A stretch of 64,000 bases of DNA. Origin: Aureispira sp. CCB-QB1. Its GTDB lineage: Bacteria; Bacteroidota; Bacteroidia; Chitinophagales; Saprospiraceae. The notes under the pieces are model-generated. The model saw only the letters and a program-made list of their open reading frames with translations, did not search any database and was not told the origin of the DNA. Positions within the stretch are counted from its first letter, which is position 1; each line of letters starts with the position of its first letter. Positions 49,965 to 57,180 of the stretch are shown here, piece after piece. The stretch covers positions 62,001-126,000 of the forward strand of contig NZ_JHBV01000041.1 in the NCBI RefSeq assembly GCF_000724545.1, in the 5' to 3' direction. The position numbers and the translations under genes were made by a program.

Positions 49965-50235
49965 GGTTTCTTAGAAGTTGTTTAAAACTACCTTTCCCTC
50001 TAATTTATTTAATGATTTTTTTTCATATCAATCGCTAACTGTATTGCTACATCAACTAAGAACAAAAGATAACTCAAACTAATTCAAACTTCCTACTTAA
50101 TAATTGCTTTTTTATAAAAAAGGCAAAAGTACACACAGCATTTCTCCCAATATTGCCCAAGTATTATCTCAAAAAGAGTCTCCATTTTATCTAAAAAATT
50201 GTTAAAAGATTGCAATTGTAAAAAAAATAGACTTA

Positions 50236-50262
50236 CTTTGAATTTCAAAGCACTTTTAAAGT
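50236..50262. promoter_or_regulatory. Palindromic operator candidate 1 of the XrtN locus
   Basis: CTTTGAA-T-TTCAAAG (50236-50250) is a perfect 7-1-7 inverted repeat. One base later ACTTT-T-AAAGT (50252-50262) is a perfect 5-1-5. The same composite occurs at 51578-51600. It sits 204 bases before the first gene of the block, with a repeat element between, and is likely bound by the winged-helix regulator encoded at 51271. Confidence 0.6.
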
Positions 50263-50320
50263 CATTAAAACTTGACTCATTAGAGCATTGGTAATCCGTT
50301 AAAATTTACATACATAAGAT

Positions 50321-50433
50321 TAGTAGTTCGTTGATTACTTCGTGAGCGCTTTGCTTTTAGTTAGTTCGCTACGCTCATGAGGTCGCAAGCTTAGTTAGCT
50401 GCGCTGTTACTGCGTGGTTTCAACGAACTATTG
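50321..50433. repeat. Compact intact copy of the TAGTTCGTTG palindromic repeat (113 bp)
   Basis: The ends TAGTTCGTTG (50324-50333) and CAACGAACTA (50421-50430) are perfect inverted copies. Inner modules are TTACTTCGTGAGCGCT, GCTACGCTCATGAGGTCGC and GCTGCGCTGTTACTGCGTGG. It lies in the leader between the operator candidate and the first gene of the XrtN block. Confidence 0.85.
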
Positions 50434-50465
50434 CAAGATATAATCCAACAACCAATCTATCAACC

Positions 50466-51101
50466 ATGGATAACTTTAGCAGAGAAGAACAACTTCAGCA
50501 ATTATCAGAAATTCGTTCCCTAATGGAACGCTCAAGTCGATTTATTTCACTAAGTGGATTATCAGGAGTTGGAGCTGGTGTAACAGCATTAATTGGGAGT
50601 GCCATAGCTTATTGGCGTATTGAAGAACACACCAATTCTCTTATAAACCATGTTCGTTATGATCAATATTCTAATGCATTGCTCTGGGAGCTAATTTTTA
50701 TTGCTACTGGAATTTTAATAGTTGCTCTTAGCGTTGGTGCTTTTTTCACTTTGAGAAAAGCCAAAGAACAAGGACAAAGTATTTGGGACAAAAGTAGCCA
50801 ACAGCTCATCATTAACTTGCTAATTCCATTGGTAACTGGAGGTTTGTTTTGTTTATTGTTATTGGAACACGGTATGTTGGGAATGGTTGCCCCGGCAACA
50901 CTGATTTTTTATGGCTTGGCTTTGGTTAGTGCCAGTAAGTATACATTGAATGATATTCGGCATCTAGGATTTTGCCAAATCATCTTGGGCTTACTAAACG
51001 CTAAATTTATGGCTATTGGCAATGGTATTTTATTTTGGACAATTGGCTTCGGTGTGCTGCATATTATATATGGAATTTATATGCACTACAAGTATCGATA
51101 A
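50466..51101 (+). CDS. Membrane protein paired with winged-helix regulator, XrtN locus
   Basis: 211 residues with about six membrane helices. The N-terminus NFSREEQLQQLSEIRSLMER then SSRFISLSGLSGVGAGVTAL is the signature of a Bacteroidota membrane family that is usually encoded right before a small winged-helix protein, as here. The function is not known; sensing or holding the regulator at the membrane is a guess. It is first in a rightward block that leads to the exosortase. Operator candidate 1 lies upstream of the inserted repeat. Confidence 0.75.
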   Translation: MDNFSREEQLQQLSEIRSLMERSSRFISLSGLSGVGAGVTALIGSAIAYWRIEEHTNSLINHVRYDQYSNALLWELIFIATGILIVALSVGAFFTLRKAKEQGQSIWDKSSQQLIINLLIPLVTGGLFCLLLLEHGMLGMVAPATLIFYGLALVSASKYTLNDIRHLGFCQIILGLLNAKFMAIGNGILFWTIGFGVLHIIYGIYMHYKYR

Positions 51102-51194
51102 AAGATATCACTTGTACTTGTACTTCCTATTGCTTTAGTACTAAAATTAGCCTTGCCCAAATAGATAGCTTTTCAAAATTTAATAGAACTTTAC

Positions 51195-51202
51195 TACCTT
51201 TG
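51195..51202 (+). promoter_or_regulatory. -7 box upstream of the regulator gene
   Basis: TACCTTTG is an exact match, 68 bases before the regulator start. It could give the regulator its own transcript besides the one from upstream. Confidence 0.4.
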
Positions 51203-51270
51203 AGACTTAAACGTAGATCTATATTTATGTTCTAATAAATATAAATCACCTTGAACACAAAAAGCATCCA

Positions 51271-51561
51271 ATGATAGAAAATCTAAATAAAGTATTTGAA
51301 AGTCGTGTAAGATTAGGCATTATGTCTATTCTAATGGTCAACGAGTGGGTAGAATTCAAAGCTTTGAAGGATTTACTCAAAGTAACGGATGGGAATTTGG
51401 CTTCTCACCTTTCTGCATTAGAAAAAAAAGAATTATTAGTAGTGAATAAAGAATTTGTTGGTAAAAAACCACGAACTACTTACAATGCCACCAAAGAAGG
51501 TAAAACCCTATTTAACAAACACTTGGCTGCTCTTGAAGCTTTAATCAATAAAGAAAAATAA
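51271..51561 (+). CDS. Winged-helix transcriptional regulator, XrtN locus
   Basis: 96 residues forming a single winged-helix domain: KVFESRVRLGIMSILMVNEW, then the recognition region GNLASHLSALEKKELLVV and the wing KEFVGKKPRTTYNATKEGK, in the style of the PF13601-type family (MarR/ArsR-like). It has no sensor domain, so the signal may come from the membrane protein encoded upstream. Two near-identical 7-1-7 palindromes flank it (upstream of the block and 17 bases after its stop), which suggests it represses or activates the block through them. The regulator call is firm, the targets are inferred. Confidence 0.88.
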   Translation: MIENLNKVFESRVRLGIMSILMVNEWVEFKALKDLLKVTDGNLASHLSALEKKELLVVNKEFVGKKPRTTYNATKEGKTLFNKHLAALEALINKEK

Positions 51562-51577
51562 TTTTTTTGCTCAACAA

Positions 51578-51600
51578 CTTTGAAATTCAAAGTACTTTTA
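51578..51600. promoter_or_regulatory. Palindromic operator candidate 2 of the XrtN locus
   Basis: CTTTGAA-A-TTCAAAG (51578-51592) is a perfect 7-1-7 inverted repeat. It is followed by TACTTTTA, which makes AAAGTACTTT a second palindrome and is also one base from the -7 consensus. It lies 21 bases before the next start codon. Confidence 0.6.
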
Positions 51601-51613
51601 AAAACAACAAACC

Positions 51614-52066
51614 ATGAGTATTATCAAATGGCACAACCAGCTTTCAGCTAAAATCAGAGGCGCTCTTTTAATTTTTATTTTGCTAACCATCTTAGACAAT
51701 TCCACCCTATTTGACATTCCTATCTCCGAAACCTTCACTACGTCAAGCAATCTAAGTACTTGGTTGAGTTCCCTAATCATTGGCATTGGTTTTATTGATA
51801 GCTTTGCCTTTCATTTGGTCACGTTGCATTTAATGCTTATTGTGCTTTTATTTGGGGTTATCCAAGCCCCATTCAGAAATATATGGGCATTAAAATTCAC
51901 GCTTGCCAGCTCTTTTTTTGTTATTTTTATTACGAATTATCAACTCATAGAACCTAGCAACTCTAGTGCCGTTTTATTGAATGCCAGCTTTCAGTCCATC
52001 AAGTTAATTCCTTTAACATTGGCTTATCAGTGGACAAAACGCTTGGCCATTCCTGCCCTTATATAA
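51614..52066 (+). CDS. Small membrane protein of the XrtN locus
   Basis: 150 residues with about four membrane helices (IRGALLIFILLTILDNSTLF, LSSLIIGIGFIDSFAF, LHLMLIVLLFGVIQ, FTLASSFFVIFITNY). No motif is recognised. It sits between the regulator and the VIT-domain protein, on the same strand, directly behind operator candidate 2, so it opens the part of the block that holds the exosortase and its substrate. A helper role in the membrane is possible but not shown by the sequence. Confidence 0.65.
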   Translation: MSIIKWHNQLSAKIRGALLIFILLTILDNSTLFDIPISETFTTSSNLSTWLSSLIIGIGFIDSFAFHLVTLHLMLIVLLFGVIQAPFRNIWALKFTLASSFFVIFITNYQLIEPSNSSAVLLNASFQSIKLIPLTLAYQWTKRLAIPALI

Positions 52067-52135
52067 ACAGTGTTCTAAACAAATTCTAATTACGAAAACG
52101 CTTACCATTTTTATTCATCATCTAGCCCTACAACA

Positions 52136-54637
52136 ATGGAAACAACCATCGAATCAACCAAGCATTATTATGAAAAAAGAGATACCCACTTTTTTCTAGG
52201 ACTAGGCTTAATTGCCTTGTGTCTCAGTAGTTATCTTTTTGTAAGTGCAAGCCCCTATAATACTTATCATGTGAATTTCATCATTATTCTCAATTATAGC
52301 TGTGTTCTATTGTACTTCGCCTTCATGACCAGTTCAAACTATGTTCAAAATCGAAAATTCTTCCAACACACCAACCGTTATCAATACATCTGTTTCTTAA
52401 CGCTAGCGACGATTAGCTGCCTGACTTTAAACTTGGGAATTAATGTTTTTGATAAATTTTCATTTTGGGTCGATCTTTATATGATTGCAATGTATGGCGG
52501 ACTGCTTGCCTTTTGTTTCAGAGACCAAATGCCCCGCCAAGTACGAACAGTTATCTTTTTCACCTTAGGAATGGGAACGGCTTTAGCTACTTATTTTACA
52601 TTATACTTGCTTCCCCTAATGCCTTTTGGTATTCTACTTTGTTTTTTCTTTGGAGTAACGCTACACTTAGTCGTTCCTCTATTGGTACTCATCAACAGCA
52701 TCATATTATTTATAAGAACAGAAAAAAATCAGGCTGACAAAACAGCTTATGCATTGGGCTTAGGTGCGCCAATCTTAATTTCCGTACTTTTCACCATGCA
52801 ATGGCACCAAACCAATCAGTTGATTGAGACAACTTATACCAAACAAGAACATTCCAACGCCTATGGCTTGCCTGCTTGGGTGACACTCAGCCAAAAGCTA
52901 TCGGATGGTTTCTTTACACAACGCATTCTTAAAGGAGAAATTCTATATACCACATTATATGGCGACAGTTGGAGTTTCGGGCGAAATACAGGCACTTCGT
53001 TTCAAGATCGCAAAGAGCATGATCCTCTGATTGCCATTGCCAGTTATTTTAGTGGTAGAATTAATCTTTCTAGAAACGATCGCATTCAAATTTTAAAATT
53101 TTATAGCAAAAACAGACACGATACGCAACGCAAGCTCTGGTCAGGAAAACATCTTTCGACTACTCAAATAAAGAAAAAAATTTCGCTCTATCCAGCCTAT
53201 CGTTTAGCTTACATAGAGCAAACATTTACCATCAAAAATAATAGTTCCAGTTCTTGGCGTCAAGAAGAAGCCTTGTATACATTTACTTTGCCCGAAGGCT
53301 CTGTTGCCTCTTCTCTTTCGTTATGGGTCAATGGCATAGAACAACCCTCTCGGCTAACCACTAGAGGCAAAGCGGATAGTGCTTATGTCAATATTGTTGG
53401 TGTTGAAAGAAGAGATCCTGCTCTGTTGCATTGGCAAGAAGGCAACCAGTTGACGGTGACTGTTTTTCCTTGTACCTCCAAAGAAGATCGGATTTTTAAG
53501 ATTGGTATTACTAGCCCTTTAGTAGTAGACGACTCTGAATTGGTATTGGCTCCCATCACTTTTGAGGGACCTACTGCCGTATTTGCCGAAGAAGAGCAAC
53601 AAGTGGACTTTCCGATACAAAGAAATAAAACGTACCAAACCCACTTCAATGGTTCTATCACTTGCGATAAAATACCACTCAGTAAAGAACCTTTTTATTT
53701 CAATCACCAAAACTTTAACGTACGGGAATATCAAACCCAACAACGACATTTTGAGCCTCAGCACATCTACTTAGATGTCAACAAAAGTTGGTCGGAATCA
53801 GAATTCACACAAGTGTGCAATAGTTTTATCAGCAAGCCTATTTTTATGTTTGATAATGGTGTGTTAATACAAGTTGATGCCTATAGTTTAGATGCTTTTA
53901 AAAATGCTCAAAACAACAATTTTAGTTTGTTTCCTATCGAATTGATTGAGCATCCTGAAACAGCGCTATTGGTGAGCAAATCTACTTCAAAGTCGCCCAA
54001 TTTAAGCGATTTAAAAGAGACCCATTTGGGGCATACAACGATGACTTATTTAGAACAAAAAGAAGCTCCTATTGCCTTTTACAATCTCTCTTCTACCTTA
54101 TCTCCCTATTTGCAAAGTCTAAAAGAGTTTTATGTATTTGACTATGCGCAAGGTTCGATTCAAGAACTGAGACAATTGGCAAAACAACATCAATTTCCTC
54201 TGCAAATTACCAATTCAAAACAAGTTGTTCTACATCAAGCCAATATGCTGATACAACAAAAAAGCACTGACAATCCAACTATTTCTAAAGCACCAGATCA
54301 TTTAATGCGTTTATTTTCTTACCACCAAATTCTCAAAAAAATTGGCAAAGGTTATTTTTTGAGTGGCTACGAAAACCAAGATTTGGTCAATATTGCTAGT
54401 ACGGCACATATTGTTTCGCCTATTTCAAGTATGATTGTTTTAGAAACTCAAGAAGACTATGAGCGATTTGATATTGAAGCAAACGAAGAAGGATTGGGCA
54501 ACGCTTCTAACAAAAAGGGGCTTAAAAATGCTTCTAACAACAGTTCTGGTGCGGTTCCTGAACCACATGAATGGTGCTTTATCATCTTGATTACGCTTGG
54601 TATTCTATTCGTTCAAGTCAAAAGAATTCGCCCTTAA
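52136..54637 (+). CDS. XrtN-system VIT-domain protein with PEP-type sorting signal
   Basis: 833 residues. The first ~220 hold six or seven membrane helices. Residues about 340-460 form a VIT domain: AYRLAYIEQTFTIKNNSSSS, EALYTFTLPEGSVASSLSLW and VERRDPALLHW are the family signatures. Then HIYLDVNKSWSESEF may be a degenerate vWA start. An Asn/Gly-rich linker with a doubled GLxNASN word leads to the C-terminal signal: PEPHEW (about 808-813), a hydrophobic stretch FIILITLGILFVQV and a basic end KRIRP. That three-part tail is what exosortases cut. The matching exosortase starts 23 bases later. This is the likely dedicated substrate. Confidence 0.88.
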   Translation: METTIESTKHYYEKRDTHFFLGLGLIALCLSSYLFVSASPYNTYHVNFIIILNYSCVLLYFAFMTSSNYVQNRKFFQHTNRYQYICFLTLATISCLTLNLGINVFDKFSFWVDLYMIAMYGGLLAFCFRDQMPRQVRTVIFFTLGMGTALATYFTLYLLPLMPFGILLCFFFGVTLHLVVPLLVLINSIILFIRTEKNQADKTAYALGLGAPILISVLFTMQWHQTNQLIETTYTKQEHSNAYGLPAWVTLSQKLSDGFFTQRILKGEILYTTLYGDSWSFGRNTGTSFQDRKEHDPLIAIASYFSGRINLSRNDRIQILKFYSKNRHDTQRKLWSGKHLSTTQIKKKISLYPAYRLAYIEQTFTIKNNSSSSWRQEEALYTFTLPEGSVASSLSLWVNGIEQPSRLTTRGKADSAYVNIVGVERRDPALLHWQEGNQLTVTVFPCTSKEDRIFKIGITSPLVVDDSELVLAPITFEGPTAVFAEEEQQVDFPIQRNKTYQTHFNGSITCDKIPLSKEPFYFNHQNFNVREYQTQQRHFEPQHIYLDVNKSWSESEFTQVCNSFISKPIFMFDNGVLIQVDAYSLDAFKNAQNNNFSLFPIELIEHPETALLVSKSTSKSPNLSDLKETHLGHTTMTYLEQKEAPIAFYNLSSTLSPYLQSLKEFYVFDYAQGSIQELRQLAKQHQFPLQITNSKQVVLHQANMLIQQKSTDNPTISKAPDHLMRLFSYHQILKKIGKGYFLSGYENQDLVNIASTAHIVSPISSMIVLETQEDYERFDIEANEEGLGNASNKKGLKNASNNSSGAVPEPHEWCFIILITLGILFVQVKRIRP

Positions 54638-54660
54638 ACCTACTTTTTATATCTTTTGTA

Positions 54661-55959
54661 ATGCTAAACTCTAAAAACAAATTAATTGGAAGTTTCCTAG
54701 CACTGACCTTGCTTATTGGTATTCCTGTCTGGCAAGATTACCTGCATGGAAACTTCCTTTTTTATTTTACGCTTTTATTGGGTCCTTATATCCTTTATGT
54801 TCAACAAAAAGAAGTGGCTAGTACTCGCTATGCGTGGGCTAGTATTTTGTGTGGAATGGGGCATTTAATTTTAGGAATTAATATTTTATACCTGAGTGCT
54901 GCTTTGTTTTTTGTCCTATTTATAATTGAGTGGCAATATGGCAAATTGAATGCCCTATCTATTTATTGGATATTCATTTTATCTCCTTTAACCATTTTTT
55001 TGTTTGGTGTTTTTAGTTTTCCTATTCGGTTAGAATTGTCTAGGATAGCGAGTGGGTTACTGCAATTCGTACAACCCAATTTAACTTGTCAAGGCAATAT
55101 CATTGTTTTAAATGGGGCAGAATTTTCTGTAGACGAAGCCTGCATGGGATTAAAAATGGTCAGTTACAGCTATCTAGTCTTTTTAGTATTCATTGCCCAT
55201 TTTGAAAAAAAACACCAAGTCATCTTATCCAAACCCTTTGTAATAATGCTCTTGAGTGTAGGAACACTTCTAATTTTGTTTGCTAACCTTATTCGAATTA
55301 TTACCATCATCCTATTTCAAGCAATGCCTGACACCATCCTACACGAAGGTATTGGTTTGATTAGCTGGCTGGCTTATGTCATCCTTCCTTCTTTTTGGTT
55401 GATTCGTTTTAGCATTTGCTATTTTGGAAAAAATTATATCATCCAAAGTCCTAAGCAACTTCCAGTAAAATCAGTCCTCTTGGTATCAACTACTGCTCTT
55501 GTTTTATTAACCTTGGGCAGTTATCAAGCACTTACAAAAGATAAAACACCTCCTAAAGCAACAATTCCTATTCAACTCAAAGGCTTTGAAAAACGTATTG
55601 CAAAAGATGGTGTGGTACAACTAAGGAACGAAGTAGCACTAATCTATATCAAACCCTCTTGCGCTCCGTATCGTGCCGACCATGCTCCCAATATCTGTTG
55701 GAAAGGCAGTGGCTATAGTTTTAGTAAAGAACAACTAAGAACAATAAAAAACAAAACGGTACTAGCCGCCCAATTAAAAAAAGGAGAAGATATACTTTAT
55801 ACCGCTTGGTGGTACGACAACGGTCTGCACCAAACAGCTAGCCAAGTTGAATGGCGTTGGAATACACTACAAGGCAACGGCAACTATCAATTGATGAATG
55901 TAACGGTAGAAAGTCCTGAGTTGTTAGATGATTATATCTGCTTATTGATGACACAATAA
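54661..55959 (+). CDS. xrtN: Exosortase N
   Basis: 432 residues from the ATG at 54661 (the longer frame overlaps the VIT gene and is rejected). About eight membrane helices carry the exosortase triad: C161 in VDEACMGLKMVSY, R212 in LFANLIRIITI and H228 in HEGIGLISW. The enzyme is a membrane cysteine protease/transpeptidase-like protein that removes PEP-type sorting signals after export. A C-terminal domain of about 140 residues follows, with NICWKGSGYSFSKEQ; it recalls the EpsI domain found beside other exosortases and may be fused here. The substrate gene is immediately upstream. Confidence 0.9.
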   Translation: MLNSKNKLIGSFLALTLLIGIPVWQDYLHGNFLFYFTLLLGPYILYVQQKEVASTRYAWASILCGMGHLILGINILYLSAALFFVLFIIEWQYGKLNALSIYWIFILSPLTIFLFGVFSFPIRLELSRIASGLLQFVQPNLTCQGNIIVLNGAEFSVDEACMGLKMVSYSYLVFLVFIAHFEKKHQVILSKPFVIMLLSVGTLLILFANLIRIITIILFQAMPDTILHEGIGLISWLAYVILPSFWLIRFSICYFGKNYIIQSPKQLPVKSVLLVSTTALVLLTLGSYQALTKDKTPPKATIPIQLKGFEKRIAKDGVVQLRNEVALIYIKPSCAPYRADHAPNICWKGSGYSFSKEQLRTIKNKTVLAAQLKKGEDILYTAWWYDNGLHQTASQVEWRWNTLQGNGNYQLMNVTVESPELLDDYICLLMTQ

Positions 55960-55977
55960 TCTAAATTTTTATTTGAA

Positions 55978-57180
55978 TTACTTTGTAGGATCTGGCAACA
56001 TTTTAATATCTATCAAAGCTTTTCCTTCTTCATAACCAATCGTGGTCAACATTGGGCGGTCGATCACCCACCAAGGTTGGGTTGGATTCACTTCTAATTC
56101 TGCCTTGCCATTTTTCCAACGAACCGTAACACTTCCTGTAGCATTGTTATTTTGCCCCGCAATATCTAGTACAAAGTTTGAGGTGTAAGCCCCTTCAAAG
56201 GGTCTTCTCAGGTCAGGTAATGCAGGCGAAAAAGTAATGGTTGCTCCCGCTTTTTCTTTGTTCCATTGTTGCACATAAGCAGATTTAAGCTCCAATGTTT
56301 CTGTGCCCTCAAATTCATAGACCAATGAACGGAATTCATTTTGTTGTTTGACAACTGTTTTATTGGCTGCCTTTTGGATCGACCAATATTGCAAAACAGG
56401 TTTGCCCGTAGAAGGGTGCACTGTCGTCAACCTCCCTTCTCCCTCCACTCGCATTTCAAAAGCACCAGAACTCGCCCCTCCTTGTGTTTGTGTCAATGCC
56501 ATTTGAAAAGGAACCAATCCTAGCAACTTATCCATTTTGTAGGGTTGACCATTGTACGATATCCCCGCTTTTTTGCCAAAATCTCGATATGGCAAATGCA
56601 ATGCAACCAATAATTGATTTCTAGAATGCCCCATCGTAGAGCCATTTTTCTTTTTCAATTCTGTTTGAGGTCGTTTGCCTTGATACCAAGCTTCTACTTG
56701 TTCTCCTTTTATATTTTCATAAGAAAATGATAAATCCAACATCTTATCAGTACTCTTATCGTTTACTTTAACAGGGTAAGACTTACGCACAACAGGAAGT
56801 TCTGGCAACCAAGCTTCTATATTCGGCAAATCCGCTACAATATATTGATCTAAAGAACCTTCCTCTGCGTCTTTCATAATCCACAAATCCCCATCAGGGG
56901 TCTCTAACTTGGCATATTCATGCATATTCCAATCGGGATGCTTCGAAACTAATATCAAATCCAACTCATATGTTGCTGCCCAAATTTGTATTGGCAGTAC
57001 AGGAAACCCTACCAAAGGTGCACCTTGATACTTGACCGAATGTGCCTCTTGATTTAAAACTTCTTGGCGTTCTTGTGATGTCAAGGCAGGTCCTTCGGGC
57101 AGCATTCTTTTCAAGCTTTTGCAAGCGGTTACAAATTGAAATAACATAAGTAGTAAAAATAGTTTTGATAAAAATTGCAT
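55978..57180 (-). CDS. Unrecognised large lipoprotein
   Basis: 400 residues with lipobox FVTAC at about residue 20, followed by KSLKRMLPEGPALTSQERQE. The mature chain has LETPDGDLWIMKDAEEGSLD, YIVADLPNIEAWLPELPVV and a beta-rich C-terminus with RWKNGKAELEVNPTQPWWV. No known domain is recognised. It converges on the exosortase gene with 18 bases between the stops, so it is not part of that block. It may share a transcript with msrB upstream, although a terminator hairpin lies between. Confidence 0.7.
   Translation of the reverse strand: MQFLSKLFLLLMLFQFVTACKSLKRMLPEGPALTSQERQEVLNQEAHSVKYQGAPLVGFPVLPIQIWAATYELDLILVSKHPDWNMHEYAKLETPDGDLWIMKDAEEGSLDQYIVADLPNIEAWLPELPVVRKSYPVKVNDKSTDKMLDLSFSYENIKGEQVEAWYQGKRPQTELKKKNGSTMGHSRNQLLVALHLPYRDFGKKAGISYNGQPYKMDKLLGLVPFQMALTQTQGGASSGAFEMRVEGEGRLTTVHPSTGKPVLQYWSIQKAANKTVVKQQNEFRSLVYEFEGTETLELKSAYVQQWNKEKAGATITFSPALPDLRRPFEGAYTSNFVLDIAGQNNNATGSVTVRWKNGKAELEVNPTQPWWVIDRPMLTTIGYEEGKALIDIKMLPDPTK

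Follow-up and report, generated by a model that had tools for sequence, protein, structure and literature searches.

The 64,000-nucleotide stretch of the Aureispira sp. CCB-QB1 genome analysed here (hereafter the window) carries a locus for exosortase N (XrtN) with two palindromic sites that we propose to be operators of a neighbouring winged-helix regulator, gB. Five rightward genes, all on the forward strand, stand in the list of open reading frames (ORFs) in the order gA-gB-gC-VIT-xrtN. gA (50466-51101) encodes a polytopic membrane protein, the presumed partner of the regulator; gB (51271-51561) encodes the 96-residue regulator, of the HTH_34 type; and gC (51614-52066) a membrane protein of 150 residues, a facultative member of the predicted regulon. 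The VIT protein (52136-54637), the sole predicted client of XrtN, comprises N-terminal membrane helices, a VIT part, an alpha/beta (vWA-like) part and the C-terminal sorting tail SSGAVPEPHEW-hydrophobic-KRIRP, encoded at 54542-54634. The xrtN frame is open from 54571, its likely start being the ATG at 54661 and its end lying at 55959.

Family scores agree with these assignments. XrtN reaches 325 bits on the exosortase N model TIGR04476 over residues 17-411 (curated cut-off 200), and it has C161, R212 and H228, numbered from 54661, at the Cys, Arg and His positions that play the catalytic role in exosortases; it is 77% similar to XrtN of two Aureispira metagenome-assembled genomes (MAGs). The VIT protein scores 834.7 bits on the XrtN-system model TIGR04477 (curated cut-off 250) and 34.7 bits on the VIT domain PF08487 (gathering threshold 26.5). 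Similarly, gB scores 100.6 bits on HTH_34 (PF13601, gathering threshold 27) and is the only strong match to this family in the genome (7.37 Mb, 184 contigs), one other protein being barely at the cut-off, while it stays at 21.3 bits on the ArsR/SmtB metalloregulator model NF033788 (curated cut-off 55). A sequence-only reading of the window had described five genes, the three active-site residues, a PEPHEW tail and two matching composites, and all of these are borne out.

The composites coincide with the two operator sites, both on the forward strand. Site 1 (50235-50256) lies before gA-gB, as it also does before gA in relatives, and site 2 (51577-51598) lies before gC-VIT-xrtN, 15 nucleotides ahead of the gC ATG. 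They read CTTTGAATTTCAAAG at 50236 and CTTTGAAATTCAAAG at 51578, and each is followed by YACTTTTAAA. The long composite, with at most three mismatches, matches twice in the window and never in 100 shuffles, and CTTTGN5CAAAGYACTTT has three matches in the whole genome, namely the two window sites and one on another contig, against none for the reversed-pattern control. Since the bare 15-mer with up to three mismatches occurs at chance frequency (eight found, 8.76 expected), we give weight only to exact or near-exact composites. The form conserved among relatives is ACTTTG-N5-(C/A)AAAG-YR-CTTT, and the ACTTTTAAA word accordingly begins as a third operator half-site, ACTTT. The composite of palindrome and word stands at both sites, and the 7-1-7 symmetry first ascribed to it is local to this genome and not its general form.

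Operators and regulator across Bacteroidota

A scan of species genomes yielded 46 XrtN loci, of which 39 were assessable. The seven others were left out because they are cut off (L001, L011, L029 and L042), have 185 bp upstream (L043) or have no TIGR04477-like neighbour (L015 and L045, which are alike in every ORF compared). Counting the operator core CTTTGN5[CA]AAAG between 700 bases before and 200 bases after the start of the VIT frame, we found at least one core in 31 of the 39 loci and at least two in 23. Further away in the same loci, more than 2,200 bases upstream or more than 200 downstream of that start, three cores occur in 545,296 bases of one strand. The C-only core is present in 30 loci, and L041 has two copies of the A variant. 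Absence of the palindrome from other XrtN loci had been set in advance as grounds for giving up the operator claim; the palindrome is found in most of them, though not in all, and its placement supports the reading of the palindromes as conserved operators. Many Chitinophaga xrtN loci carry two sites 56-66 bp apart directly before the VIT ATG. In Chitinophaga xrtN leaders (L006, L009, L013, L014, L017 and others), a terminator-like hairpin followed by a T-run often lies between the paired operators.

For 38 of the 46 loci, the genome was searched for both gB and the motif. gB is present in 35 of these genomes (best E at most 4.1e-26) and CTTTGN5CAAAGYRCTTT likewise in 35, the same three genomes (G022, G034 and G037) lacking the one and the other; a control pattern has a single match over all 38. 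gB lies inside the examined xrtN locus in only five of the 35 genomes (L003, L004, L005, L008 and L012). In the 30 others the regulator lies elsewhere and the motif is usually still at xrtN, so that gB would act there in trans. Neither gA nor gB was found in the Chitinophaga xrtN loci, and in this genus, where gA-gB is unlinked to xrtN, sites are present at both places.

The same association holds in a sample drawn independently of XrtN, consisting of 198 Bacteroidota genomes that are at least 90% complete. At a threshold of E<=1e-15, gB occurs in 75 of these genomes, and the strict motif in 48; XrtN is above cut-off in only three, with 17 further weak matches below it. The strict motif was found in 47 of the 75 genomes with gB versus 1 of the 123 without, and the relaxed motif, which allows C or A in the right arm, in 62 of 75 versus 1 of 123 (Fisher 4e-37, kinship ignored). 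gB and motif occur together in 15 families and 39 genera, and 91 of the 116 relaxed sites are no more than 2 kb away from gB. Of two further XrtN genomes, G147 has neither gB nor motif, and in G212 both are present, a site lying 88 bp ahead of the VIT match. Because the motif goes with gB even where XrtN is absent, the operator is best read as belonging to gB, with XrtN as one recurrent target. An XrtN-specific operator was rejected on the same ground. The proposal that the 96-residue regulator is the most likely reader of the palindromes is supported by this co-occurrence, as far as sequence can tell. The idea of a self-contained sorting module does not hold, since gA, gB and the operator form a phylum-wide unit that is mostly found without XrtN.

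Promoter overlap, gA and the predicted regulon

TTG serves as the -33 element of Bacteroidota promoters. We divided 171 sites, taken in one orientation, into 99 first-type sites, with no T-run or other core just upstream, and 72 second-type sites. At 65 of the 99 first-type sites a TTG begins at -26 to -24 from the C of CTTTG, versus 2-9 of 99 when the search interval is shifted by 3 to 18 nucleotides (ten shifts); these promoter counts include many sites from related genomes and are thus not independent. The exact TAnnTTTG is present at 42 of the 99 and TTACTTTG at 38. One study gives TAnnTTTG at -12 to -5 as the Bacteroidota sigma-A consensus (PMC9723704). Site 1 of the window fits such a -33/-7 promoter: on the forward strand, a predicted -33 TTG (50210-50212) begins 26 nucleotides ahead of CTTTG, the predicted -7 box TTACTTTG (50233-50240) overlaps the left operator arm, and transcription is predicted to start near 50245. 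With the left arm being the -7 box and the operator covering the start, repression by occlusion is likely.

gA and gB occur as a pair. Of 60 gB loci, the 30 best from each of the two gB searches (XrtN genomes and the 198 Bacteroidota genomes) with the window included, 59 have gA ahead of gB and in the same orientation. The two genes are adjacent in most loci, and their frames are 334-645 nucleotides apart in L154, L157, L159 and L166. A Pfam search with gA gave no match, and its structure model consists of long helices (predicted local distance difference test score, pLDDT, 75). Its N-terminal I16, M20, S23, F26, S28, L29, G31, G34 and G38 are conserved at 97-100% in 64 sequences, in which the stretches 146-150 and 191-203 are nearly invariant as well; the N-terminus may have a docking role. 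In gB, D40-G41-N42-L43-A44 and H46 are conserved at 98-100% in 61 sequences, and 1ub9 is the only solved structure related to it by sequence (E<=0.01).

To outline the regulon, the genes behind 124 sites were clustered in the searched XrtN genomes and in that of the window, each cluster being named after the Pfam matches of one or two of its members. The clusters include gA (34 genomes), the VIT protein (27), CreD (12), a 248-residue protein (9) and the gC family (6). Several small membrane proteins are also found behind operators, as are, more rarely, an MpaB-like protein (four genomes), DUF2809 (three) and diacylglycerol kinase (two). The CreD protein (PF06123, 516 bits) recurs behind the operator in Chitinophaga. 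In seven listed loci the gene for the 248-residue protein is followed by a DUF1361-like frame, one of these frames having been tested by Pfam. The gC family precedes VIT in only four loci (the window, L002, L030 and L033) and in three other genomes (L055, L140 and L143) it follows operators without VIT.

Two further sites lie before genes of other kinds. A one-mismatch operator (ACTTTGTAATTCAAAGTTCTTT) at G000:C20:40903-40924 (L151) precedes two sugar-nucleotide-type genes, which we take to encode a UDP-glucose dehydrogenase and then a sugar-nucleotide epimerase or decarboxylase; a link between the gB regulon and exopolysaccharide is possible. In one Chitinophaga genome (L137, 2095-3429), an orphan operator lies 15 nucleotides before the gene of a serine beta-lactamase-fold protein (PF00144).

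The VIT protein and its sorting tail

The tail of the VIT protein is tripartite and PEP-CTERM-like, AVPEPHEW-CFIILITLGILFVQV-KRIRP. A profile of 37 positions was built from 22 rows, all of which share the G, PEP and EW of the tail without exception. In every one of 41 XrtN genomes it has a single strong match (E no higher than 6.3e-9, the next best being 0.011), and TIGR04477 is above cut-off in 40 of these genomes. The VIT frame lies directly upstream of xrtN in 43 of the 46 loci, one of the other three being cut off at xrtN, and also in G147 and G212. The suggestion that the enzyme may serve one dedicated protein is thereby strengthened: the single tail match per genome and the adjacency of the two genes point to a one-to-one relation, as judged from sequence.

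In a Saprospiraceae MAG (G037; L045, 5968-7989), a protein with a VIT and a regular vWA domain and the same PEPGEW tail replaces the usual client beside xrtN; it appears by eye to have a signal peptide. In Chitinophaga costaii (L028, 5585-6921), the VIT gene is split in two around two frames, presumably an insertion sequence, and the xrtN frame is still open.

The structure model of the window VIT protein (pLDDT 83.5) shows membrane helices at the N-terminus, a VIT part rich in beta strands, an alpha/beta part and one helix at the C-terminus. PDB sequence searches with XrtN and with the VIT protein gave no match at E<=0.1. Among PDB folds, the VIT protein best matches that of inter-alpha-inhibitor heavy chain 1 (6fpy, E 4.4e-12 over 602 columns), with TM-scores of only 0.27 and 0.35 and a root-mean-square deviation of 11.9. 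The membrane helices and the sorting tail are additional to that protein, and DxSxS, the vWA metal-site motif, is not kept: the candidate strand reads DVNKS, and the consensus of 29 sequences is DINxxW, so that by sequence metal binding is not expected. Pfam finds vWA in the L045 protein and not in the window VIT protein. When the profile of the VIT family was compared with the L045 protein, the alignment covered the tails only, so that it is the fold match and Pfam that speak for similar vWA parts.

Proposed switch and alternative readings

We consider it probable that gB represses both gA-gB and gC-VIT-xrtN, that gA senses the envelope and relieves this repression, and that XrtN cleaves its sole VIT client. 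gB would act as a dimeric winged-helix repressor on ACTTTG-N5-(C/A)AAAG-YR-CTTT. Bound at site 1, on the -7 box of a sigma-A promoter, it would block RNA polymerase and so repress its own gA-gB unit; at site 2 it would repress the gC-VIT-xrtN operon. gA may sense the state of the cell envelope and bind or release gB, perhaps through its conserved N-terminal segment, and an envelope signal would then open the regulon. XrtN would cleave, and perhaps re-anchor, the single VIT client at its PEP[HG]EW tail. A broader proposal, which we hold only tentatively, is that gA-gB is an undescribed, phylum-wide envelope switch of two genes that has captured promoters several times by setting its operator on their -7 box, including those of CreD, DUF1361 units, diacylglycerol kinase and XrtN-VIT; surface sorting of an inter-alpha-inhibitor-like protein would then belong to a general envelope-stress response of Bacteroidota.

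Several observations weigh against these proposals. Eight of the 39 XrtN loci have no operator core (L026, L034, L035, L036, L038, L040, L044 and L046); two of their genomes lack gB and five have it, L036 being outside the gB search. In the Bacteroidota sample, 13 of the 75 gB genomes have no relaxed motif, eight of them with a weak gB (E >1e-22) and five with a strong one, and the Fisher values overstate independence because the genomes are related. Site 2 has a T-run in place of a clear -33 element, and only 14 of the 72 second-type sites have the TTG (0-3 in the shifted intervals), which makes the occlusion argument weaker there. The model of gA matches no PDB fold at E<=0.001 and presents no recognisable sensor fold. 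The third site of this genome lies about 125 nucleotides from a DUF1361 gene in reverse orientation and points away from it, so that DUF1361 is an uncertain target. Finally, 150 of the 187 first-look tail candidates were scored in the window's genome, and 21 of the 22 rows of the tail profile stem from the loci under test.

The overlap with the promoter could also mean that the word is the promoter class of a particular sigma factor, merely used by gB, rather than an operator. CTTTG matches the -7 box, and most first-type sites have a TTG at the proper spacing. However, the second arm and the third ACTTT recur across genomes downstream of the predicted start, the TTG is missing from 58 of the 72 second-type sites, and the word is rare (three copies in this genome and 0 to 7 in each of 38 others) and follows gB, which makes this reading quite unlikely. 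As a leader RNA, CUUUG-N5-CAAAG could fold into a hairpin acting as an attenuator or riboregulator, and between two sites of several Chitinophaga xrtN leaders there is a terminator-like hairpin with a T-run. Over 172 sites, however, the inner pair is G-C in 155, G-A in 15, T-C in one (broken) and T-A in one (kept), the other four pairs being fixed. The predicted transcription start moreover falls inside the palindrome, and the Rfam scan of 50000-56200, palindromes included, gave no match. As single-arm changes are uncompensated in 16 of the 17 changed sites, the hairpin was rejected, and we see very little chance of it.

It is rather improbable that gB activates xrtN, or regulates it in both directions, from two sites. 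The 23 loci with at least two cores near VIT, often 56-66 bp apart, would suit cooperative or looping action, but the first-type sites lie over the -7 box and the start, a position typical of repressors. We also give little credence to a VIT protein that is left uncleaved and whose tail is a plain membrane anchor. The protein already has membrane helices at its N-terminus, and its cleavage by XrtN is so far a prediction; against this stand the invariant G, PEP and EW, the position of VIT directly upstream of xrtN with one strong tail match per genome, and the different VIT-vWA body that bears the same tail beside xrtN in L045. We thus retain repression by gB, with cleavage of a single client by XrtN, as the preferred reading.

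The exosortase and VIT families, HTH_34 and CreD are already known, and the names of TIGR04476 and TIGR04477, both exceeded by far here, already pair exosortase N with a VIT protein. Beyond these names, the present analysis adds the regulator, the operator, the regulon, the client count, the vWA-like part and the substitute client of L045. A search of the open-access literature, in which the operator letters were not among the queries, returned no account of the gA-gB unit, of its operator and regulon, or of how XrtN is regulated, and no described function for XrtN was found there. In Bacillus subtilis, SdpR is a small autoregulatory winged-helix repressor encoded beside SdpI, a polytopic membrane protein that senses the signal and sequesters SdpR. 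gA-gB resembles this pair in its winged-helix regulator and membrane neighbour, a likeness drawn from gene linkage (59 of 60 loci) and the conservation of gA, and the envelope signal proposed here would follow a similar logic. In enterobacteria CreD is controlled by the CreBC two-component system, whereas here it lies behind the gB operator, under a putative winged-helix regulator with a membrane partner. XrtK, paired with MSEP-CTERM, is a single-target exosortase; on its models, the VIT protein (72.8 bits on TIGR04286, cut-off 150) and XrtN (29.3 bits on TIGR04287, cut-off 55) both stay below cut-off. XrtF of Flavobacterium johnsoniae is, like XrtN, a Bacteroidota exosortase with an adjacent system-associated protein, but of a different subfamily. 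In the accessible parts of its account, the genes of XrtF and its associated protein come from a surface-colonisation screen, the clients are left to future work and no regulator is named (PMC10936215).

A likely regulator, an operator and a regulon with CreD and membrane proteins would say when XrtN may be needed, and this is directly testable. The proposed gA-gB switch gives a first handle on the purpose of the little-studied XrtN; if it is true, the trimming of one surface protein lies under a shared DNA switch. The apparent one-client rule (41 of 41 genomes) makes XrtN unusually clean for proving cleavage chemistry, with a single protein to follow, and the operator is sufficiently well defined for regulon members to be predicted from it in many Bacteroidota.

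The window also holds a stable stem-loop element of about 110 nucleotides (50321-50433, forward strand), located between site 1 and gA, with 11-bp inverted ends (TAGTTCGTTGA) and a fold z of -2.94. It has no second copy within the window and no match in the same Rfam scan, and in L002 only about 80 nucleotides separate the site from gA, too few to accommodate it. The element resembles a small mobile or REP-like (repetitive extragenic palindromic) one.

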